DNA of 64,000 nucleotides, taken from Rheinheimera sp. 4Y26. GTDB lineage: Bacteria; Pseudomonadota; Gammaproteobacteria; Enterobacterales; Alteromonadaceae. This document shows, piece after piece, positions 49,835 through 59,794 of the stretch. The notes below the pieces were generated by a model. The model saw only the letters and a program-made list of their open reading frames with translations, did no database searches and was not told the origin of the DNA. Each line of letters starts with the position of its first letter. The first letter of the stretch is position 1. The position numbers and the translations under genes are program-made. The DNA is taken from positions 186,001 to 250,000 of the forward strand of contig NZ_JAOBWS010000003.1 in assembly GCF_025245835.1 (NCBI RefSeq). Direction: 5' to 3'.

Positions 49835-49916
49835 TAGCGCTGTTGCCGCTTAAAATTCAGCTGCAAAGCACAGCGGAACCAGATAAAATCAGCGGCCTTG
49901 TTCTTTGCCGTGCAAA

Positions 49917-52900
49917 ATGGATTTAAAGTTGCCTACCTCTACCCCACCACCGGTTGAAAAAATGCAGTTTGATAACTACCGCGAACCTGCAGGCCAGGCG
50001 CAGCAGCGCACTGGTTTAACCTCGCAGCAGGTGGAGGTACGTTACAAACGCCGCAGTCTGATCCCGGTGTTATTGTTGCTTTTAATGGCATCTGCCGGCG
50101 TACTGGTGGCTTATGAATTACATACTGCGCACTACAGCGCGCCAAAAATTGCTGAATACGCCAAAACCCTGACTTATCAGCTGCAGCAAGGTCCGGCCAA
50201 ACAAGTGGTGTATCCGCAAGGTGGCCCTTTTGACGAGCGCCATGGTTACACCAAGCTCCCCGAATTATTACCCCGTTTACTGGAGCGTAATTTCCGTATC
50301 ACCGCGCAGGCTGAGTTTTCGCCGGCGCTGAATCATTACGCTTCACAGGGACTATTTCCGCCTTATCGCGAAAAAGTGCAATCCGGTTTGTTTTTAGCGG
50401 ATTGCCGTAACCAGACCTTATTTGATTTTAACTACCCGCAACGGGTGTACCGCGACCCAAGAGACATTCCTGTGGTAGTGGCGCAAAGTTTATTATTTAT
50501 TGAAAACAGAAACTTATTAAAAATCCCCCCAACCGCCAACCCGGTGATGGACTGGCCGCGTTTTATCATGGCGGCGGCAAGCCAGGTAGGAAAAGTGTTG
50601 TCGGTGGGCGGTCAGTCAGCGGGCGGCAGTACCCTTGCCACCCAGATTGAAAAATTCCGCCACTCGCCTATGGGGTTAACCCGCGGTTTTAAAGACAAAG
50701 CCGTTCAAATCATCTCAGGAACCATCAGGGTGTATCAGCATGGTGTGAATACCATGGGCATGCGTACCCGTATAGTTCAGGACTATTTAAATACAGTGCC
50801 TTTGTCCTCTGCACCGGGTCATGGTGAAGTACATGGTGTTGGTGATGCACTCTATGCCTGGTTTGGCAGTGATTTTGACAAAGCCAACAGCCTGTTAAGC
50901 GCGCCTGCAACGGCTGAAAACGCCGCTGAGCGGGCGCAATATTTCCGCCAAATTGTGGCACTGATGATAGCGCAGCGCCGTCCTTCTTATTATTTGCTGC
51001 AAGGCCATGACGATTTAGAACAGCTCACCGACAGCCATCTGCGGTTATTAGCAGGTGCCGGTGTGATAGACAAAGCCTTGCGTGACGAAGCACTGTCGCA
51101 AAAGCTGACCTTTCGCGTTGCTAAAGTGAATAAAACCAAAGCCGAGCAGGACGCCAAAAAAGGCATTAATGCCGCCCGCCTGCGCCTTGGCAATTTACTG
51201 AACCAGCCGATATACGACTTAGACCGGCTGGACTTAAACGCCCACAGCACCTTGCATGGCGACGTGCAACAAAAAGTCAGTGCTTATTTGCGTAGCCTGG
51301 CAAACCCGGACACCGCCGCCAAATACGGCCTGATTGGTGACAGGCTATTAAGCGCCAGTGGCACAGATGATGTGTTATACAGCTTTACCCTGTTTGAAAA
51401 AACACCGGATGGCAACAGGGTGCGGGTACAAACCGACAGTACCGACCAGCCCTTTGACTTAAACGAGCACAGTAAACTGGAGCTTGGCTCTACCGCCAAA
51501 TTGCGGGTGCTGGCCACTTATTTAGAAATAGTTGCTGAGCTGCATCAGAATTTTGCCGACGAGCTGCCGGTGAATTTATTAAACCTCGATATTGCCCCGG
51601 CCGACCACATTACCCGCTGGGCCGCCAACTATATGGCGCAAACGTCAGACCGAAGTTTAACCGCTATGCTGGACGCAGCGCTTAACCGCACTTATTCGGC
51701 CTCGCCGCACGAGCGTTTTTTCACCGGCGGTGGTTTGCAGGTCTTTAATAACTTCGACAAAAAAGAAGACAGCAAGGTGCCTACAGTTGCCGAAAGTTTG
51801 CAGCAGTCACACAACCTGCCTTTTGTCCGTTTAATGCGTGACATCGTGGCTTATGCCAGCAGTTATCAGACTTTGGGCAGCAGCTCGTTATTGCTGCGAA
51901 GTGACAAAGATCCAAAACGGGAAGAATACCTGCGCCGTTTTGTTGATAAAGAAGGCACTGAATTTTTACGTAAATTCTGGAAAAAATATCAGCAAAAACC
52001 GGCCGATGAACGCCTCGAAGTATTTTTTGACGGCTTAAAACAAACGCCGGACCGTTTAGCTGCGGTACACCGTTATTTATTGCCGGAATCTGACTTTAGC
52101 CAGTTCAGCCGTTTTTTACTGGACAAACTGCCGGATGAACAACTCAGCCCGAAAAAACTGGATGAGCTGTATAACAAATATGGTCCGGGCAAATTTAGCT
52201 TGCCGGATCAGGGTTATATCGCCAAGGTGCACCCGCTGGAACTGTGGTTATTAAGTTTTATCAATAAAAACCCGGACGCAAAATTCAGCGATGCCGTGGC
52301 GCAAAGCAGTGAACAGCGCCAGCAAGTGTATCGCTGGTTGTTTAAAACCAGTAACCGCAGTGCGCGCGACAACCGCATCCGCATTATGCTGGAGGTAGAA
52401 GCATTCCTGGATATTCACCAGCGCTGGGCCAAACTGGGTTACGCTTTTGACCACCTGGTGCCGTCTTTAGGCACAGCACTTGGCAGCTCGGGCGATCGCC
52501 CTGCTGCGCTGGCTGAACTGATGGGTATTATTCAGAACGACGGTATCCGCTTGCCGACCATCCGTATTGACAGCCTGCATTTTGCCGCCAAAACGCCTTA
52601 TGAAACTATGCTGCAATACAACGCCAGTGCAGGTGAAAGAGTGATGCGCCCTGAAGTCGCACGGGCGCTGAAAAAGACTTTAGGCCAGGTGGCTGAACTG
52701 GGTACGGCACGGCGTTTAAATGGCAGCTTTACCAAAACCGATGGCTCCCCGCTTAAAATTGGCGGCAAAACAGGTACCGGTGATAACCGTATTGCCACTC
52801 AGGTGGTGCGTGGCAAAGTGATGGCGTCGACGGTGAATAACAGAACCGCCACCTTTGTGTTTTATTTAGGCGACAACTACTTTGGCACCCTCACCGCTTT

Positions 52901-53036
52901 TGTGCCGGGCAAAGGCGCCGACAATTTCAGCTTTACCTCTGCGCTGCCGCTGCAGGTACTTAAAGGCATGGCACCTCTGCTGCAGCCTTATGTGGTGAAG
53001 GATGAGTCGATGTGTGCTGTGGGAGCTTCCCGATAA
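49917..53036 (+). CDS. Divergent bifunctional penicillin-binding protein (GT51 plus transpeptidase)
   Basis: 1039 residues from ATG 49917 (TTG 49905 is in frame). A cytoplasmic N-terminus and one membrane helix (LIPVLLLLLMASAGVLVAYE) are followed by a GT51 region at about 190-330. Its motifs are altered: LLFIENRNLL in place of AxEDRxFxxH, GGSTLATQIEKFRHSP (motif 2) and RGFKDKAVQ in place of RKxxE. RIVQDYLNTVPLS is motif 4-like. The transpeptidase has S-x-x-K (GSTAKL, about 524), SHN (S-x-N) and KTGTGDN (about 950), so its active site is complete. A long helical insertion lies between SHN and KTG. It polymerises and cross-links peptidoglycan or modifies it in a special setting. The GT activity is uncertain. 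Confidence 0.85.
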   Translation: MDLKLPTSTPPPVEKMQFDNYREPAGQAQQRTGLTSQQVEVRYKRRSLIPVLLLLLMASAGVLVAYELHTAHYSAPKIAEYAKTLTYQLQQGPAKQVVYPQGGPFDERHGYTKLPELLPRLLERNFRITAQAEFSPALNHYASQGLFPPYREKVQSGLFLADCRNQTLFDFNYPQRVYRDPRDIPVVVAQSLLFIENRNLLKIPPTANPVMDWPRFIMAAASQVGKVLSVGGQSAGGSTLATQIEKFRHSPMGLTRGFKDKAVQIISGTIRVYQHGVNTMGMRTRIVQDYLNTVPLSSAPGHGEVHGVGDALYAWFGSDFDKANSLLSAPATAENAAERAQYFRQIVALMIAQRRPSYYLLQGHDDLEQLTDSHLRLLAGAGVIDKALRDEALSQKLTFRVAKVNKTKAEQDAKKGINAARLRLGNLLNQPIYDLDRLDLNAHSTLHGDVQQKVSAYLRSLANPDTAAKYGLIGDRLLSASGTDDVLYSFTLFEKTPDGNRVRVQTDSTDQPFDLNEHSKLELGSTAKLRVLATYLEIVAELHQNFADELPVNLLNLDIAPADHITRWAANYMAQTSDRSLTAMLDAALNRTYSASPHERFFTGGGLQVFNNFDKKEDSKVPTVAESLQQSHNLPFVRLMRDIVAYASSYQTLGSSSLLLRSDKDPKREEYLRRFVDKEGTEFLRKFWKKYQQKPADERLEVFFDGLKQTPDRLAAVHRYLLPESDFSQFSRFLLDKLPDEQLSPKKLDELYNKYGPGKFSLPDQGYIAKVHPLELWLLSFINKNPDAKFSDAVAQSSEQRQQVYRWLFKTSNRSARDNRIRIMLEVEAFLDIHQRWAKLGYAFDHLVPSLGTALGSSGDRPAALAELMGIIQNDGIRLPTIRIDSLHFAAKTPYETMLQYNASAGERVMRPEVARALKKTLGQVAELGTARRLNGSFTKTDGSPLKIGGKTGTGDNRIATQVVRGKVMASTVNNRTATFVFYLGDNYFGTLTAFVPGKGADNFSFTSALPLQVLKGMAPLLQPYVVKDESMCAVGASR

Positions 53037-53042
53037 TATTCC

Positions 53043-53067
53043 GGCTGGTGGTTATTGACCACCAGCC
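53043..53067 (+). terminator. Hairpin after the penicillin-binding protein gene
   Basis: Perfect 10-bp stem GGCTGGTGGT/ACCACCAGCC with a 5-nt loop, 6 nt after the stop. No T-run follows, so termination efficiency is uncertain. Confidence 0.5.
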
Positions 53068-53142
53068 TGTCTAAATTGAACAGCTGAACTTGGCTGCATT
53101 CTGCTATTACCTTTACATTCCTTCATGTATTTCTGACCCCTT

Positions 53143-53163
53143 TGATTTTACTTTTCAAAATCA
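53143..53163 (+). promoter_or_regulatory. Inverted repeat upstream of the candidate precursor peptide
   Basis: TGATTTT-N7-AAAATCA, 80 nt upstream of ATG 53241, within an AT-rich leader. Possible operator or promoter element. No regulator is assigned. Confidence 0.4.
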
Positions 53164-53240
53164 GCTCTATCGGTTAGGCTAAGGTTTCGTCAACAATTAT
53201 CCTGCTTGTTCAACCATTTATTGATGTGAAGGAAACACTA

Positions 53241-53504
53241 ATGCTCACGACAGTACAACTGTTAGACCGCTTGGGTCGAGATGCCTCATTTGAAAAGATG
53301 ACACAAGATGAAAAAGTAAGTTTTATCCGGAACAACTCAGAAGACCCACTTGTTGCACAAGCTATTATCGATTCTGACGTCGTTCTTCTCAGCAATCTTA
53401 TTTATGCCGGTAAAAAGGGTTGTTATTTACTTGTTCCTGCTGAAGACGAAAAAGAAGCCGAAGATGCACCTGAACAGAAAGATGATAAAGTTTCTTTCCA
53501 ATAA
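53241..53504 (+). CDS. Candidate split-borosin (RiPP) precursor peptide
   Basis: 87 residues from ATG 53241, with AAGGAA six bases upstream. The GTG at 53226 is in frame but poorly placed. The N-terminal helical region LLDRLGRDASFEKM and DPLVAQAIIDSDVVLLSNLI resemble, from memory, the borosin-binding domain of SonA of Shewanella (LGQDAQL, then a helix ending in GDMEKLKTL). A short hydrophobic stretch CYLLVP (61-66) is placed as SonA's SYLVI core is, and an acidic tail follows (AEDEKEAEDAPEQKDDK). A strong terminator begins 15 nt after the stop. It lies in one run with a borosin-type methyltransferase 2.4 kb downstream. The precursor role is inferred. It could also be an unrelated small acidic protein. 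Confidence 0.6.
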   Translation: MLTTVQLLDRLGRDASFEKMTQDEKVSFIRNNSEDPLVAQAIIDSDVVLLSNLIYAGKKGCYLLVPAEDEKEAEDAPEQKDDKVSFQ

Positions 53505-55242
53505 GCAGTTCCATTTATTAAAGACGGTGCTGTGCGCCGTCTTTTTTTGTTTTTCTAATTTAGTCGCTGCAGAAAGTGACTACAACAAAATTCTTATTCA
53601 AGCCGACGAAATAAAAACAACGGACCACACCAAAAGTGTTCATTTAGTTAATTTAATAAAGTCCCCGGAGAAACTCCCACCGGCGATGTTATCTTATTAT
53701 TATTACCTAAAAGCTTATCATGCAGCTTATTCAGGTGATTATGACAACGGTATTATCAACTATAAAAAATCAATAGCTGCCTCTGATGATTCTTTATTAA
53801 ATTATCGCGCGAGAATATCTCTGGCAAATATCTATGGTGTCAAGCGTAATGCCGGATTAACTATGGAATATTTAATCCCTGCCCTAGAGGAAAGCGAGCG
53901 AGTCAAAGATAAGGAACATAAGCATAATGGATTGCTTGTTGCAGCTATCGTTTATTCACAATTTGGATTGCATCAGCAAGCATTAGAAGTAACCAGTGCA
54001 CTATTAAAGGACGAACCGGCAAATCGGGTACTCTGTTATGCGTTGGCGGTAAAACACGAATCTGAACATTACCAGAATACATCTGCTGACGAGCAGACAA
54101 TTAACAGTGACGCATTACGCTGTAGAGATGCAGGTCAATTACTTCCTTCAGTGGCTATCAGTAGCTATGTTATTTATAAAAACCTAAAAAACAAAGAATT
54201 CCAAAAGGCAAAAGAAAAAATAACAAATTTAATGCCTGATGTAGAAAAGACAAATTACAAAATATATATATCCGAATACACTTATCTGCTTGGTGCAGCC
54301 CAATATGGGTTAGATGATTATGCTTCTGCAGAAACACAACTGAAAAAATCAATTGAAATGAACAGCAGGGCTGGTAAAACCCGTCCTGTTATAGATTCTC
54401 TATTATTACTTTCAAATATAAAAGAAAAACAAAAACAATTTAGTGAAGCACTTCATTATTACAAGCGTTATTCGGAAGCTGAAAAATATTACAACGAAGA
54501 TTTATCATCACAAAAAATTTCATTTCAGCTGGCAAAGTTGCAGCTATTTAATAAAAACCAGCAAATTGAACTACTTGAAAAAAATAACTCCTTGCTAAAA
54601 CTCGAAGGTGAGCTCACCGCAACGGAAGCGGCAAAAAACAGATTATTCATCATTTTGCTTGTAATTTGTCTATTTTCAATTAGCTATTTCACAATAAAAA
54701 CATTGAGAAGCAGAAAAATGTACCGCACTCTGGCAGAGAATGACAACCTGACCGGAATCAGCAATCGCTATCATTTTACGCAGAAGATGAAGCTGTGCAT
54801 TGAACAAAGCTCAAAGTCAAATCAAGTAGACTCATTTATTATTTTCGATTTAGATTTATTCAAACAAATTAATGATACATATGGCCATTTAACCGGAGAT
54901 TGGGTTCTTGAAGCCGTTGTTCATCACTGTAAACAGTTCGTACGTAATGTTGATATTTTTGGTCGTATCGGTGGTGAGGAATTCGCTGTTTATATGCCAG
55001 CTTGTACTGCAGAAAAAGCGGCTCTGTTTGCTGAGATATTAAGAGACGCAATTTCCATTATTGATTGTAGTGGTAGTGGACATCCTATCAGCATAACGGC
55101 AAGTTTTGGCGTAACCAGCACGGATCGTTCCGGTTATGAATTAAGGCAATTGTTCCGTGACGCCGATCTCGCTTTATACAAATCAAAAGACTCAGGAAGA
55201 AACCGAGTTACAGTATTTAATTCAGCTGAATCGGAAATATGA
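53482..55242 (+). CDS. Periplasmic TPR-GGDEF diguanylate cyclase
   Basis: 586 residues from ATG 53482, overlapping the small upstream gene by 23 nt. A signal peptide (TVLCAVFFCFSNLVAA) precedes a periplasmic region of TPR-like helical pairs (SYYYYLKAYHAAYSGDYDNG, YASAETQLKKSIEMNSRAG). A coiled coil, one membrane segment at about 387-407 and a cytoplasmic GGDEF domain follow. The active site reads GGEEF near residue 496, with an inhibitory RxxD (RNVD) five residues before it. It should make c-di-GMP in response to a periplasmic signal. Base composition is clearly more AT-rich than neighbours. A terminator hairpin lies within its signal-peptide codons, so expression depends on read-through. Confidence 0.88.
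   Translation: MIKFLSNKQFHLLKTVLCAVFFCFSNLVAAESDYNKILIQADEIKTTDHTKSVHLVNLIKSPEKLPPAMLSYYYYLKAYHAAYSGDYDNGIINYKKSIAASDDSLLNYRARISLANIYGVKRNAGLTMEYLIPALEESERVKDKEHKHNGLLVAAIVYSQFGLHQQALEVTSALLKDEPANRVLCYALAVKHESEHYQNTSADEQTINSDALRCRDAGQLLPSVAISSYVIYKNLKNKEFQKAKEKITNLMPDVEKTNYKIYISEYTYLLGAAQYGLDDYASAETQLKKSIEMNSRAGKTRPVIDSLLLLSNIKEKQKQFSEALHYYKRYSEAEKYYNEDLSSQKISFQLAKLQLFNKNQQIELLEKNNSLLKLEGELTATEAAKNRLFIILLVICLFSISYFTIKTLRSRKMYRTLAENDNLTGISNRYHFTQKMKLCIEQSSKSNQVDSFIIFDLDLFKQINDTYGHLTGDWVLEAVVHHCKQFVRNVDIFGRIGGEEFAVYMPACTAEKAALFAEILRDAISIIDCSGSGHPISITASFGVTSTDRSGYELRQLFRDADLALYKSKDSGRNRVTVFNSAESEI
53520..53554 (+). terminator. Strong terminator/attenuator inside the start of the TPR-GGDEF gene
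   Basis: 11-bp stem (53520-53530 with 53534-53544; one G-T pair) with a 3-nt loop, followed by TTTTGTTTTT. It is 15 nt after the stop of the candidate precursor gene and within codons 13-25 of the next ORF. Confidence 0.88.
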
Positions 55243-55332
55243 CTGAAGGCATGTTCCTGTAGTGCAGCAACCATCTTTTTTTGCAAGTTAGTCCGGTGCA
55301 TATCATCGGCAGAACACCAGGCTTTTAAAACA

Positions 55333-55887
55333 GTGATATCAACTAACCTCCCGCAAAAGACCCAAAAAACAACCATTGTTAGTGTCAGTCAGGCACATCA
55401 GCCATTATTCCACGAGCTTTACGGCAACCAACGTATAATGCGGAACATTGCAGAAACTTATAGCGAAGAAAAAATAAATTCGCTGCTCAGGTCATGTATT
55501 AACGCTGAACTTAAAGCAATTCCGTTAAAGCGTTTTCTGGTGATTGAATGCAACACAAGAAATATCGCTGTGGGACTGCTCTCCATACAACCGACCCATA
55601 TACCTGATGCGCCAATTGAGTTAGGCATGATGCTTACAACTAAAGCTTGGGGAAAAGGTATTGCAGATGAGGCATTGATCAGCCTTTGCCTGTATTGTTT
55701 CAAGGTTTTAAATGCACCAGCAGTTTTAGCCAGATTTCATCCCGAGAATAAAAGTGCGCGTGCTATTTGTTTTAGGTTAGGTTATCAGCATGCACCTCGG
55801 ATATATCAGCAACCTGAACTAGAGACTTTGTGGCTACAGAACACGATATCCAACAAGACAGCTTTCAGCAGCAGATTGTTTTCTTAA
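55333..55887 (+). CDS. GNAT-family N-acetyltransferase
   Basis: 184 residues from GTG 55333, with only a weak ribosome-binding site. The fold of acetyl-CoA-dependent GNAT enzymes is seen in GLLSIQPTHIPDAPIELGMM and the pyrophosphate-loop region TTKAWGKGIADEALISLCLY. ARFHPENKSARAICFRLGYQ (strand 5 and helix 4) is the pattern of RimJ/RimL-type acetyltransferases. It lies 27 nt before the borosin-type methyltransferase, so the two are probably co-transcribed. It could act on the peptide product or on the N-terminus of another protein. This is inference. Composition is AT-rich like the gene before it. Confidence 0.85.
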   Translation: MISTNLPQKTQKTTIVSVSQAHQPLFHELYGNQRIMRNIAETYSEEKINSLLRSCINAELKAIPLKRFLVIECNTRNIAVGLLSIQPTHIPDAPIELGMMLTTKAWGKGIADEALISLCLYCFKVLNAPAVLARFHPENKSARAICFRLGYQHAPRIYQQPELETLWLQNTISNKTAFSSRLFS

Positions 55888-55914
55888 GTAATTACTGTTT
55901 TAAGGGATAAGTTT

Positions 55915-56799
55915 ATGTCGTGTATACAACCAGGCAGCATCGTTATAGTCGGCACCGGTATTACCTTAGGCTCCCATATCAGCCCTTTATCGCGCAGTTA
56001 TATTGAAAATGCCGATGTGGTATTTGCCGGGGTGGCCGATGGTATTACCGAGCTTTGGCTTAAAGAAATGCATCAGGATGTGCGCAGTTTTGCGCCGCTC
56101 TATGCAGAAGGTAAATCGCGCCATCAAACCTATCAGCAGATGATTGATTTAATGCTTACCGAAGTGCGGCTGGGTAAAAAAGTGGTGGGTGCTTTTTATG
56201 GCCACCCTGGTGTGTTTGCTTATGCACCGCATAAAGTGATAGAGCTGGCCCGGGCTGAAGGTTATGCCGCCCATATGGAGCCTGGTATCAGCGCGGCCGA
56301 CTGTTTACATGCTGAACTTGGTATAGACCCTGGCAAAGTGGGCTGCCAGTATTTTGAAACCAGCCAGTATATGTTTTACAAGCGTTCTATAGACCCAACG
56401 GCCTATTTAGTGTTGTGGCAGGTGGGTATTGCCGGTGATAAAAGCATGGCGCGTTTTGCCACAGGCGCCGCTTATCGGGAAGTACTGGTGGAGTTATTGG
56501 CAGCGCATTACCCGCTCAATCACCAAGTGATGTTATATGAAGCGCCCAGCCTGCCCTTTCAGCAAGCCCGTATCGACAAACTGCCATTAGCAGCGCTGCC
56601 ACAGGCAGCAATGAACTTAAAAACCACACTGGTGGTGCCGCCTGCTGCGGCTCTTATTAAAAACCAGGCGGTGCTGGATAAACTCACCGCGATCCGCGCA
56701 GCTGAGCAACAAGCGGCTCTTGGCAACGCGGCGGCAGAGTTTGGCGAAGCGGCAACAGCAGAACTGCCGGAGAGCGAATATCAGCAGCATGAGCTTTAA
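55915..56799 (+). CDS. Split-borosin-type peptide backbone alpha-N-methyltransferase (SonM-like)
   Basis: 294 residues, AGGG before ATG 55915. SAM-dependent tetrapyrrole-methylase fold with IVIVGTGITLGSHISPLSRS at the N-terminus and GAFYGHPGVFAYAPHKVIEL and MEPGISAADCLHAELGIDPG as SAM-binding elements. LVLWQVGIAGDKSMARFAT and QVMLYEAPSLPFQQARIDKL complete the fold. These match SonM of Shewanella from memory. The catalytic Tyr/Arg set known in borosin enzymes is present: Tyr63, Arg69 and Tyr73 (LYAEGKSRHQTYQQM) and Tyr95. It N-methylates backbone amides of a separate precursor peptide. About 40 residues beyond the usual end form an Ala/Glu-rich tail. GC is back to the chromosomal average. Confidence 0.88.
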   Translation: MSCIQPGSIVIVGTGITLGSHISPLSRSYIENADVVFAGVADGITELWLKEMHQDVRSFAPLYAEGKSRHQTYQQMIDLMLTEVRLGKKVVGAFYGHPGVFAYAPHKVIELARAEGYAAHMEPGISAADCLHAELGIDPGKVGCQYFETSQYMFYKRSIDPTAYLVLWQVGIAGDKSMARFATGAAYREVLVELLAAHYPLNHQVMLYEAPSLPFQQARIDKLPLAALPQAAMNLKTTLVVPPAAALIKNQAVLDKLTAIRAAEQQAALGNAAAEFGEAATAELPESEYQQHEL

Positions 56800-57091
56800 G
56801 CCAAGCTACAGCTTCCACCGCACTACTTTGGAGCAGCAGCGTCGCAGTCGTCATTTGCAGGCCTGGCAATAGATCCTGTAGCGCGCCGGTAGCTGCTGCG
56901 CTATCTTAAGTTTGTTAGCTATCAATTTGAAATCTAATACTTAATCAGTCTTCACCTGCTGCAGCTACTGCCTGACTGCCGGCTTTATCAATCAGGACAT
57001 CACCATGGGTTTAAACCAGAGATCCGTAACCACTTTGTGCTTTAACCTCTGCAGCACTGTGCCTGCAAGCTTGAGCTACGGGCGCTAAAGA
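56800..57091. other. Gap between the methyltransferase and histidine kinase genes
   Basis: 292 bp searched for a precursor peptide. Only two 27-codon frames are found (from 56789 and 57004), neither with a helical binding domain or a core-like tail. No terminator hairpin is obvious. Confidence 0.4.
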
Positions 57092-59794
57092 ATGCCAACA
57101 ACACCAGCCTTAGCGCCTGAAGCTGCGGACTCAGTTGCTGCCACCTTATTGAAAATACTGTTGCTGGCGCTTTCTTATGTCATCAGCGGCCAGTTGGCCA
57201 TGCTGCTGGCTGCGCCACCTGGTTATGTCAGTGCTATTTTCCCGCCTGTTGGTATTTCACTGGCAGCAGTGCTTATCTGGGGTTATCCCATGTTGTTTGG
57301 GGTCTTTTTCGGCTCCACTTTACTGAACCTCAGCATCAGCCTGGGCAGTCTTTCAGCCCTTGCCACAACACCACTGAGCGCTTTACAGCTGCTGGTGCCC
57401 TGCAGTATTGCCCTGGGCACCACATTGCAGTGTTGTTGCGCCAGCTGGGTGATTAAACGCTGGATAGGTTTCCCTAACCCACTGACCGACGATAAACAAA
57501 TTTTCTGGTTGTTAGTGATAGGCGGACCACTGTCCTGCCTGCTCAGTGCCAGCGCCGGTATTGCGGTGTTGTATCAGCATCAAATTATCAGCGCTTCGCA
57601 GCTGCTGTTTAGCTGGTGGAGTTGGTGGGTGGGCGACAGCATAGGTGTATTAATTGCTACACCTTTAATGTTTATTGTTTTTGCCAAACCACGTGACATC
57701 TGGCGCAGCCGCGTCAGTAGTGTTGGTTTGCCGTTATTGATCAGCTGCGCCCTGATGGTAGTGCTGTTTTTCCGCACTATTGAAGATGAACAAGACCAAC
57801 TGCAACAAAGGTTTCATGAACAGGCCAAATTAATGGCGCAAAGTATTCAATCGCGTCTGGTGCTCTACACCAGTTCAGTAATGCCGATTGAGCGTTTTTT
57901 TGCCGCCTCTGGTGAAGTAACAGCAACAGACTTTGCTATTTTTGTCAGCGCCACCGCCCGCAATCACCCCGGCATCCGCGCGCTGAGCTGGAACCCCAAA
58001 ATAACTTTGGCCGAGCGCTCCTGGTTTGAAGCCAGGCTGCAGGCCGAAGCGCCGGGCCAGCAGCAAATTACCGAGCGCGGCAGCAATAACCAGCTGCTTA
58101 CAGCAGCACCCAGGCCCACTTATTTTCCCATCTACTTTATTGAACCCAAAGCAGATAACCTGACCGCCATTGGTTATGACGTGGCCTCTGAGCCGGTGCG
58201 GCAAAAAGCCATGCAAAGCGCCCGCGATAGCGGCCACGCCACCCTGACCGCCCCACTGCAGCTGGTGCAGGACAATGAGCAGCACATTGGCATGTTGCTG
58301 TTTTACCCGGTATTTCAAACGGCACTATGGCCGGCCACAGCGATGGAGCGCCAGCAATTATTGCGGGGATATGTGGTGGCCGTGCTGCATATGACAGCCG
58401 TGATCCAATCTGCGCTTGCCGCTTATCCGGCGCAGAGTTTTCAGCTGGTGGTCAATGATATCAGTGACGGCACAGCACAACCGCTGTACCACAAACAACA
58501 ATCCGCCACACCGGCTTATGCCAGGTCGCTTATCTGGCAACAAGAGTTCGACCTGGCCGGCCGGCGTTTTAGCCTGCAGATAGCGCCCAGTGACCAATTT
58601 TTAAAATCACAAAGCAGTTTACAACCCTGGGCCATTCTGACCGGTGGTTTATTGTTATGTGGCCTGCTGGGTGGTTTTTTATTGTCGGTAACAGGCCGCG
58701 CCGAGCAGGTGCGCCGTCAGGTCAAACTGCGCACGCTGGAGCTTACCGGCATTTTTAACAACGCCGCTGAAGCTATTTTAATTTTTAACTCAGACGGCAC
58801 TATAGAGCGCGCCAATATTGCCGCCCAGCAGCTGTTTGGTTACAACAACAGCCAGTTATTAAAGTTACAAATTGCCGCTTTATTGCCACAGCTGCAGCTC
58901 AACAACGAAGCGGATTTAACCAAAGCTCAGGGCCGCGCCATTGAAGCTGTGGGCAACAGCGCCGCCGGTGTCAAACTGCAGCTGGAAATTAGCCTGAGCA
59001 GCTACAGCCTGCCAGGCCACACCTGGTTTATTTGTTTATTGCACGATATCAGCGAGCGCAAAAAAATAGCCCGGCTAAAGAGCGAATTTGTAGCAACAGT
59101 CAGCCATGAACTGCGCACACCGCTGACCTCTATTAAAGGTGCGCTGGAGCTGGTGAACGCCGGCGTGTTAGGCACCTTACCTGAAGCGGCCGGCAATATG
59201 CTGCGCTTAGCCGGCAAAAACACCGAGCGGCTGGAGCTTTTGGTCAACGATATTCTGGACATCGAAAAACTGGAGCTGGCCGAAGCCAGCCTGGTGCTGA
59301 GCCCGCTAAACCTTGCCGAACAGCTGCAGCTGGCGCTGCAACAAAACCAGAGTTACGCCACCAGCTATGGCGTGACACTCAGCCTGGATCTGGAGCAGCT
59401 GCCAGCCACAACCAAAGTGCTGGCCCATAACCAGCGCCTGCAACAGGTATTCAGTAACCTGATTAGCAACGCGGTAAAATTCTCGCCAGCGCAAAGCCAG
59501 GTACAGATCAAAGCAATACAACAAGGCCATCAGGCGATAGTGAGCTTCAGCGATCAGGGCCCTGGTATTGCCGAAGAATTTCGTAGCCGCATTTTCCAGA
59601 AATTCGCCCAGGCCGACGGCTCAGACACCCGCCAACGCGGCGGCACCGGCCTTGGCCTCAGTATTTGCAAAGCGCTGATGGAAAAAATGCACGGCAGCAT
59701 TGGCTTTGACAGCACCGAAGGCAAAGGCAGCACGTTTTTTATTACATTGCCATTGATGGATGAGGAGCCTGCTGCACCAAGGGTTGCAGGTTAG
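57092..59794 (+). CDS. MASE1-CHASE-PAS sensor histidine kinase
   Basis: 900 residues. An N-terminal MASE1 membrane domain (about 15-230; PPGYVSAIFPPVGISLAAVL, WWVGDSIGVLIATPLMFIVF) is followed by a periplasmic CHASE domain (about 240-510; IRALSWNPKI, GYDVASEPVRQKAMQSARDS). A PAS domain lies at about 550-650. The kinase core has the H-box VSHELRTPLTSIKGALELV, N-box NLISNAVKFSP, DQGPGIAEEF (G1) and GTGLGLSICK (G2). All catalytic elements are intact. There is no fused receiver domain and no response regulator nearby, so it is an orphan kinase. It probably senses a small molecule at the periplasmic face. Confidence 0.93.
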   Translation: MPTTPALAPEAADSVAATLLKILLLALSYVISGQLAMLLAAPPGYVSAIFPPVGISLAAVLIWGYPMLFGVFFGSTLLNLSISLGSLSALATTPLSALQLLVPCSIALGTTLQCCCASWVIKRWIGFPNPLTDDKQIFWLLVIGGPLSCLLSASAGIAVLYQHQIISASQLLFSWWSWWVGDSIGVLIATPLMFIVFAKPRDIWRSRVSSVGLPLLISCALMVVLFFRTIEDEQDQLQQRFHEQAKLMAQSIQSRLVLYTSSVMPIERFFAASGEVTATDFAIFVSATARNHPGIRALSWNPKITLAERSWFEARLQAEAPGQQQITERGSNNQLLTAAPRPTYFPIYFIEPKADNLTAIGYDVASEPVRQKAMQSARDSGHATLTAPLQLVQDNEQHIGMLLFYPVFQTALWPATAMERQQLLRGYVVAVLHMTAVIQSALAAYPAQSFQLVVNDISDGTAQPLYHKQQSATPAYARSLIWQQEFDLAGRRFSLQIAPSDQFLKSQSSLQPWAILTGGLLLCGLLGGFLLSVTGRAEQVRRQVKLRTLELTGIFNNAAEAILIFNSDGTIERANIAAQQLFGYNNSQLLKLQIAALLPQLQLNNEADLTKAQGRAIEAVGNSAAGVKLQLEISLSSYSLPGHTWFICLLHDISERKKIARLKSEFVATVSHELRTPLTSIKGALELVNAGVLGTLPEAAGNMLRLAGKNTERLELLVNDILDIEKLELAEASLVLSPLNLAEQLQLALQQNQSYATSYGVTLSLDLEQLPATTKVLAHNQRLQQVFSNLISNAVKFSPAQSQVQIKAIQQGHQAIVSFSDQGPGIAEEFRSRIFQKFAQADGSDTRQRGGTGLGLSICKALMEKMHGSIGFDSTEGKGSTFFITLPLMDEEPAAPRVAG

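Follow-up and report, generated by a model that had tools for sequence, protein, structure and literature searches.

A split borosin locus of Rheinheimera sp. 4Y26 in which the precursor gene is paired, and exchanged, with a gene for a putative TPR-GGDEF receptor

What is a gene for a predicted diguanylate cyclase doing between the precursor gene and the methyltransferase gene of a split borosin, a backbone N-methylated ribosomally synthesized and post-translationally modified peptide (RiPP)? The question is raised by positions 53241-56799 of a 64,000-nt stretch of Rheinheimera sp. 4Y26 (the window), which is, by the homologies described here, a split borosin locus. The open reading frame (ORF) list shows four genes on one strand (+), in the order peptide, TPR-GGDEF, GNAT, and methyltransferase. 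They encode an 87-residue SonA-like precursor (53241-53504), a 586-residue TPR-GGDEF membrane protein that we propose as a receptor and diguanylate cyclase (53482-55242), a GNAT acetyltransferase from a gene with a GTG start (55333-55887, PF13302), and a SonM-type alpha-N-methyltransferase (55915-56799). We selected the ATG at 53482 as the start of the TPR-GGDEF gene, which then overlaps the peptide gene by 23 nt. Pfam matches were GGDEF (2.9e-38), TPR_12 (1.2e-8), Acetyltransf_3 (9.2e-19), and TP_methylase (1.1e-20). Judged across related loci, the GGDEF gene is not a gap filler; it is the precursor's most constant partner.

The original prediction, made from the letters of the stretch, had named a SonM-like N-methyltransferase with a Tyr/Arg catalytic set at 55915-56799, and this assignment stands. 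SonM is the best match (9.6e-78), followed by OphMA-type fused enzymes (7e-48 to 2e-42). The catalytic residues Y63, R69, and Y73 align with Y58, R67, and Y71 of SonM, which are named as substrate-stabilising (PMC8429565). By this homology the enzyme is a SonM homologue with the Tyr/Arg/Tyr set retained. A cobalamin or siroheme methyltransferase was considered and rejected, as all five NCBIfam tetrapyrrole matches fall far under their cut-offs (YabN 6.5e-12, cobM_cbiF 7.8e-5), and the enzyme does not fall in such a clade.

The precursor sequence alone gave no PDB match. Profile A1, whose 41 sequences are the window precursor and those of 40 relatives, matches seven different SonA sequences at 2.4e-13 to 4.7e-12, with the next match at 0.24. 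Profile A3, built from 18 sequences with Shewanella excluded, still recovers SonA (2.3e-6 to 3.9e-5; next match 0.015). The precursor model has five helices within residues 4-55 (4-13, 15-19, 22-32, 36-43, and 47-55), and the SonA leader is a five-helix bundle (PMC8429565). A Foldseek search with this model returned SonA chains as its top six matches, but at E values of 0.86-2.5, which are not significant. The profile matches and the five-helix leader model bear out the earlier reading of the peptide as a borosin precursor, with a predicted five-helix borosin binding domain, a core, and an acidic tail. In the A1 alignment the window row runs against the SonA-like Shewanella rows with no gap through the predicted methylated core, C61-Y62-L63-L64-V65 (53421-53435). 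Because the core stands ungapped opposite the SonA-type core, L63 and V65 are the most likely N-methyl sites; they align with L63 and I65, the N-methylated residues of SonA (PMC8429565). The window peptide is probably backbone-methylated. A profile search of the rest of the genome found no second precursor, let alone a better one (next match E 1.29).

To place the locus among its relatives, we compared 124 loci around SonM-like genes. Besides the window, these were 43 named loci (Rheinheimera, Dyella, Rhodanobacter, Luteibacter, Paraglaciecola, Shewanella, Kangiella, and others) as well as 80 regions drawn from the surroundings of 104 enzyme places, which a search of 196 related genomes had located in 80 of them. 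Removal of duplicates (L096, L102, L111, and L165) left 120 loci. An iterated precursor profile detects a precursor in 101 of these, so that peptide and enzyme do occur together in related genomes. In all 101, the next gene downstream on the same strand encodes a homologous TPR sensor. The output of the sensor is GGDEF in 83 loci and a histidine kinase in 13; the other five are incomplete (one TPR-only ORF, one TPR-GGDEF gene with an in-frame stop, and three TPR ORFs cut by contig ends). The link of the locus to cyclic di-GMP (c-di-GMP) that had been suspected is therefore upheld by this survey, as is the conservation of the precursor-sensor pair.

In 80 of the 101 loci, an ORF of at least 540 residues with a GGDEF match adjoins the precursor on the same strand, and the remaining 21 were inspected singly. 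L130, L140, and L164 encode divergent TPR-GGDEF proteins. L121 and L122 carry the sensor, which the window TPR query matches at 6e-23 and 8e-18, on a histidine kinase (L121:3-1844, cut by the contig end, and L122:4040-6043). TPR-histidine kinases, most with receiver domains, are found at L139, L143, L144, L146-L149, L153, L158, L163, and L167. L162 has a TPR-only ORF of 378 residues, the receptor of L079 is interrupted by an in-frame stop, and the TPR ORFs of L049, L050, and L084 hit a contig end.

A Pfam scan of 36 receptors gave GGDEF in 36/36 and TPR_12 at E ≤0.01 in 24/36, with other TPR models in further members. Because Pfam TPR models miss some receptors, kinship of the sensors rests on a sensor profile and on two invariant cysteines. 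The TPR part of 26 receptors, none from Shewanella and all stripped of GGDEF, served to train the profile, which recovers the sensor part in 76/76 other TPR-GGDEF receptors (worst 3e-30) and in all 21 singly inspected receptors, 20 of them at 7e-9 or better and L153 at 0.0018. Cys185 (codon 54034-54036) and Cys214 (codon 54121-54123) of the window sensor were invariant in 36/36 and then in 102/102 TPR-GGDEF receptors. Their spacing of 29-30 residues is kept in the kinase versions at L121 and L122 and in L130, L140, and L164; the two cysteines are not kept in 11 distant kinases. In the model they sit on neighbouring helices (181-197 and 204-216) and may form a disulfide.

The pairing also holds in the reverse direction. 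A search of the 196 genomes with the sensor alone, without GGDEF, returned 60 places in 49 genomes, Rheinheimera sp. 4Y26 included; 59 of the 60 places had a SonM-like gene no more than 5 kb away, the exception being L206, and none of the 49 genomes lacked the enzyme. The sensor gene is, as far as gene neighbourhoods tell, genetically tied to the peptide gene in the manner of a dedicated receptor.

Loci outside the 101 agree with this pattern. All of 20 further Shewanella-like regions (17 genomes), picked from a longer list and with the genus inferred from two SonM matches at 98-99%, read methyltransferase-precursor-TPR-GGDEF, and loci with 98-99% identical SonM likewise carry a TPR-GGDEF gene behind the precursor. 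Three more gammaproteobacterial loci (L208-L210) follow the same pairing. Among the 19 loci in which no precursor was detected, a TPR-GGDEF-like ORF lies close to the enzyme in nine, six of which (L087, L116, L118, L131, L133, and L134) show a plausible precursor on inspection. Scanning found a TPR kinase at four more (L150, L151, L155, and L160), and ORFs at L152, L154, L156, and L157 are similar to TPR kinases, by likeness only. Several variants of the precursor gene were seen along the way. At L181:4771-5292, two SonA-like precursors, one of them longer-tailed, lie between a 99% SonM homologue and a TPR-GGDEF gene. Three tandem precursor-like genes precede the TPR-GGDEF gene in Rheinheimera sp. 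SA_1 (L047:2015-3594), and L092, L094, L095, and L097 have, in addition to the precursor that precedes the receptor, another one upstream of the enzyme. At L207:2340-5864, a SonM-like domain is part of an ORF of 1174 residues that ends in an acidic C-terminal tail and looks like a fused borosin; the ORF beside it is presumably P450-like.

The model of the window receptor (mean predicted local distance difference test score 91) consists of a helical solenoid, a long helix, and the GGDEF domain. Foldseek of the whole model gave only GGDEF-domain proteins among the 50 best matches listed. By hydropathy, the receptor has an N-terminal hydrophobic segment that may be a signal peptide or a first membrane helix (53509-53571) and a transmembrane helix that separates the TPR sensor from the GGDEF domain (54625-54708). 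A transmembrane helix ahead of GGDEF is found in 99 of the 102 TPR-GGDEF receptors. Because of these two segments, the TPR domain is predicted to be periplasmic. The GGDEF domain (54736-55206) has an intact GG(D/E)EF motif, here GGEEF (54970-54984), and an RxxD product-inhibition site (54943-54954); diguanylate cyclase activity is predicted from the intact motif. GGEEF is present in 98/102 receptors and the RxxD site in 84/102.

The precursor and the sensor are also joined by how they vary, a point absent from the original prediction. A blastn comparison of the window with its sister locus L045 gives 94% identity over 49950-53021 and 92% over 55931-59768, and between these flanks only 351 bases of the GGDEF core (54829-55179) align, at 72%. 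The block 53022-55930, unalignable apart from that core, holds the precursor, TPR-GGDEF, and GNAT genes and is best described as an exchanged cassette. Protein identities to L045 are 99% for the transglycosylase encoded upstream, 92% for the enzyme, 41% for TPR-GGDEF, 33% for GNAT, and 24% for the precursor; by similarity, the precursor scores 0.20, the sensor 0.24, GGDEF 0.73, and the enzyme 0.97. At 38%, the GC content of the cassette is lower than in either flanking gene (51-52%) and in the sister cassettes (40-47%). By these comparisons the precursor-receptor-GNAT block of the window is a divergent, AT-rich allele that sits between conserved transglycosylase and methyltransferase genes. 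No close donor was found among the 196 relatives (best sensor identity 32%). Nor did a mobile origin find support, as 53241-55239 had no match in plasmids and the sensor had none in phages.

A second case comes from Shewanella benthica KT99 and DSM 8812 (L075 and L076), whose DNA is 94.7% identical up to where the enzyme gene ends, and once more across roughly the final two fifths of the receptor gene. Similarity is 0.36 for the precursor, 0.18 for the sensor, 0.92 for GGDEF, and 0.93 for the enzyme. In blocks of 25 residues, receptor identity rises from 4-48% to 80-100% at about residue 359, the last few residues excepted. The two loci diverge further downstream too, where L075 has an apparent transposase fragment and L076 another ORF. 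Tandem units within L108 and L069 give the same picture (sensor 0.29 and 0.34, precursor 0.34 and 0.31, GGDEF 0.88 and 0.84). Among pairs of loci with enzyme similarity of at least 0.90, those with sensor similarity <0.3 (10 pairs) have precursor similarity of 0.20-0.44 and GGDEF similarity of 0.57-0.92; precursor similarity is 0.31-0.78 where the sensor is at 0.3-0.6 (62 pairs) and 0.59-0.99 where it is >0.6 (38 pairs). Precursor and sensor are, on these similarities, exchanged together, while the methyltransferase stays similar and GGDEF changes less. A partial Mantel test on 102 precursor-receptor pairs with 199 permutations gave a modest correlation of precursor with sensor given enzyme and GGDEF (r 0.18, p 0.005, the lowest p attainable) and no clear dependence of precursor on GGDEF given enzyme and sensor (r 0.055, p 0.095).

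We favour, with somewhat better than even confidence, a reading of the locus as a split borosin signalling module in which the borosin is the ligand of the TPR receptor. The methyltransferase would bind the helical leader of the precursor and methylate backbone amides of the core, likeliest at Leu63 and Val65 as judged from SonA. The mature peptide would be cut and released by factors encoded outside the locus and recognised by the periplasmic TPR domain of the protein encoded directly behind the precursor. A single membrane helix and a coiled coil would relay binding to the GGDEF domain, whose intact motif suggests that it makes c-di-GMP; in related loci, the homologous sensor would drive a histidine kinase in its place. 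Precursor and sensor would co-vary as ligand and receptor do in polymorphic pheromone systems, possibly with group specificity. The wider proposal, that gammaproteobacterial split borosins are a Gram-negative pheromone system with an N-methylated RiPP, a periplasmic TPR receptor, cassette-swapped alleles, and signalling groups, is more tentative, and we give it slightly less than an even chance.

Several observations weigh against this reading. Ligand binding and c-di-GMP output of the receptor are both deduced from sequence. The precursor has no evident signal peptide, and the N-terminal hydrophobic segment of the receptor exceeds the hydropathy threshold in only 71/102 members. No exporter or peptidase is found among the four genes of the window. 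Shewasin A reportedly cleaves a borosin precursor; a search for the pepsin-like family PF00026 gave no match in the genome of Rheinheimera sp. 4Y26, and the same search found none in the controls either. The core is not uniform, as 48/102 precursors have no cysteine in residues 46-75. TPR repeats are common, and the weak sensor matches of the distant kinases may partly reflect general TPR likeness. The pairing has exceptions: no TPR gene was seen at L145 or at L086 (a 4-kb contig), and L206:5216-6994 encodes a TPR-GGDEF protein of the family with neither precursor nor methyltransferase in the 12-kb region that contains it. L207, with its apparent fused borosin, comes from a genome of another bacterial class and has no TPR gene, so that the pairing does not extend to every borosin. 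As for co-variation, the residual correlation of the precursor with the methyltransferase (r 0.33) exceeds that with the sensor. Precursor and sensor genes are adjacent, and a single recombination tract moves both (in the window, GNAT too). Finally, the co-exchanged pairs represent few independent events in about three clades, one of which is two units within one locus.

The alternative that survives best makes the TPR protein a maturation, export, or regulatory partner that binds the leader or precursor, with c-di-GMP or the kinase reporting precursor status inside the producer only. TPR domains often bind proteins, and the precursor and TPR genes are directly adjacent, overlapping in the window. 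The lack of an exporter or peptidase noted above fits this explanation too, as does the finding that alleles differ over the full length of the precursor, including its leader (similarity 0.43 in S. benthica). However, the TPR domain is predicted to face the periplasm while the precursor lacks an evident signal peptide, and the GGDEF output can be replaced by a kinase. We regard this explanation as unlikely, though worth keeping in mind.

It is less probable still that the peptide is an antimicrobial and that its detection by the TPR protein turns on production or protection, in the manner of autoinducing bacteriocin systems. In bacteriocins with cognate sensing, too, peptide and sensor are expected to vary from allele to allele while the enzyme remains constant, and the tandem precursors of L047 and the second precursors of L092, L094, L095, and L097 would suit such a role. 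On the other side, the four genes of the window include no immunity or export gene, a statement confined to the window since other loci were not searched for such genes.

The original prediction had described the diguanylate cyclase and acetyltransferase between precursor and enzyme as a new arrangement, and their insertion as a one-off event would at first sight account for the window's order of precursor-GGDEF-GNAT-methyltransferase. The comparison does not sustain this, and we consider a one-off insertion very improbable. Four sister Rheinheimera loci (L045-L048) share the order, six more (L127, L141, L142, L159, L161, and L164) have it without GNAT, and the precursor-TPR pair is present in all other orders. 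The commonest order is enzyme-(GNAT)-precursor-receptor, and at L049, L056, L090, and L093 the precursor (and receptor) lie on the strand opposite the enzyme. Across these orders the precursor-receptor pair is the unit that stays together, and the window order is, in this set of loci, a minority form that carries a swapped cassette. Still less credible is a chance GGDEF neighbour, with sensor variability caused by phage or other selection and the precursor hitchhiking: the genome does hold 59 GGDEF domains in 4.08 Mb, but about one per 69 kb cannot yield 101/101 same-strand neighbours or 59/60 in the reverse search, which excludes chance adjacency, and the kinase versions retain the TPR part.

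The acetyltransferase gene has a looser place in the system, as an optional accessory swapped with the cassette. A GNAT gene lies within 700 nt of the enzyme on the same strand in 50/87 close, 2/23 intermediate, and 0/10 distant loci, so that it is frequent and yet optional. The window GNAT is 30-33% identical to those of the sister loci. Over 80 pairs, GNAT varies as much as the sensor does (median similarity 0.50 versus 0.52; enzyme 0.96).

The favoured signalling module has parallels in known peptide systems. In Staphylococcus agr and Bacillus comQXP, the ligand gene and the sensor domain co-vary between close strains while the output domain and neighbouring genes remain similar. The borosin loci show the same joint variation, but in Gram-negative bacteria, with a backbone N-methylated RiPP, a TPR sensor, and a c-di-GMP or histidine kinase output. 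The RRNPP receptors of Firmicutes are cytoplasmic TPR proteins that bind peptides. A TPR solenoid is likewise proposed here to bind a short peptide, whereas the window receptor is predicted to be periplasmic and has a membrane helix and GGDEF. The closest described borosin is the type IV split system SonM-SonA of Shewanella oneidensis (PMC8429565), which shares the separate alpha-N-methyltransferase and a SonA-like precursor with a five-helix leader, and the catalytic Tyr/Arg/Tyr and core position are kept in the window. The window differs in that TPR-GGDEF and GNAT separate its precursor from the enzyme, which is encoded downstream, and in the acidic tail past the core.

A word search of the main text of PMC8429565 finds neither GGDEF nor TPR, and the text of the RiPP methyltransferase review PMC11285071 that was available gave no GGDEF. 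A connection of GGDEF with borosins has been drawn before in print, in a scheme of borosin architectures whose legend names a GGDEF-containing domain (Figure 1 of PMC11395268). In the accessible text of that paper, GGDEF is not linked to a TPR sensor, co-exchange, or a receptor role. Our literature search found nothing joining borosin with diguanylate or c-di-GMP, although an earlier mention in Imani 2022 is possible. The enzymes of split borosins have been studied well. As of 2021, no split borosin pathway had been tied to a final natural product, according to the Discussion of PMC8429565. A constant TPR receptor whose output domain can be swapped, and whose sensor is exchanged along with the precursor, would give split borosins a concrete function. 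If this is true, peptides of unknown purpose would be a signalling system, and N-methylated RiPPs would be connected to c-di-GMP and cell-cell recognition in Gram-negative bacteria.

Expression of the pair may be tuned by a structure at the start of the receptor gene. Sixteen nt past the precursor stop there is an intrinsic-terminator-like hairpin of 11 bp with a T tract (53520-53554, +), a candidate attenuator that could keep the precursor level above that of the receptor. Similar elements follow 15/82 precursors, against 3.4 expected from shuffles; after the methyltransferase, taken as a control, they number 6/130 against 1.8 expected, so that the excess at precursors is only somewhat larger than that of the control. 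By this count the hairpin is enriched after the precursor and not general across loci. Across 10 loci, of which two are copies of the window region, no c-di-GMP riboswitch or other Rfam element reached the gathering score, save tmRNA in three.

Two further genes flank the locus. Upstream is the gene for the transglycosylase-domain protein (49905-53036, +; PF00912), a conserved chromosomal neighbour that lies outside the system. Downstream of the methyltransferase, a gene for a MASE1-CHASE-PAS-histidine kinase occupies 57092-59794, with DNA similarity in L045 and L046.

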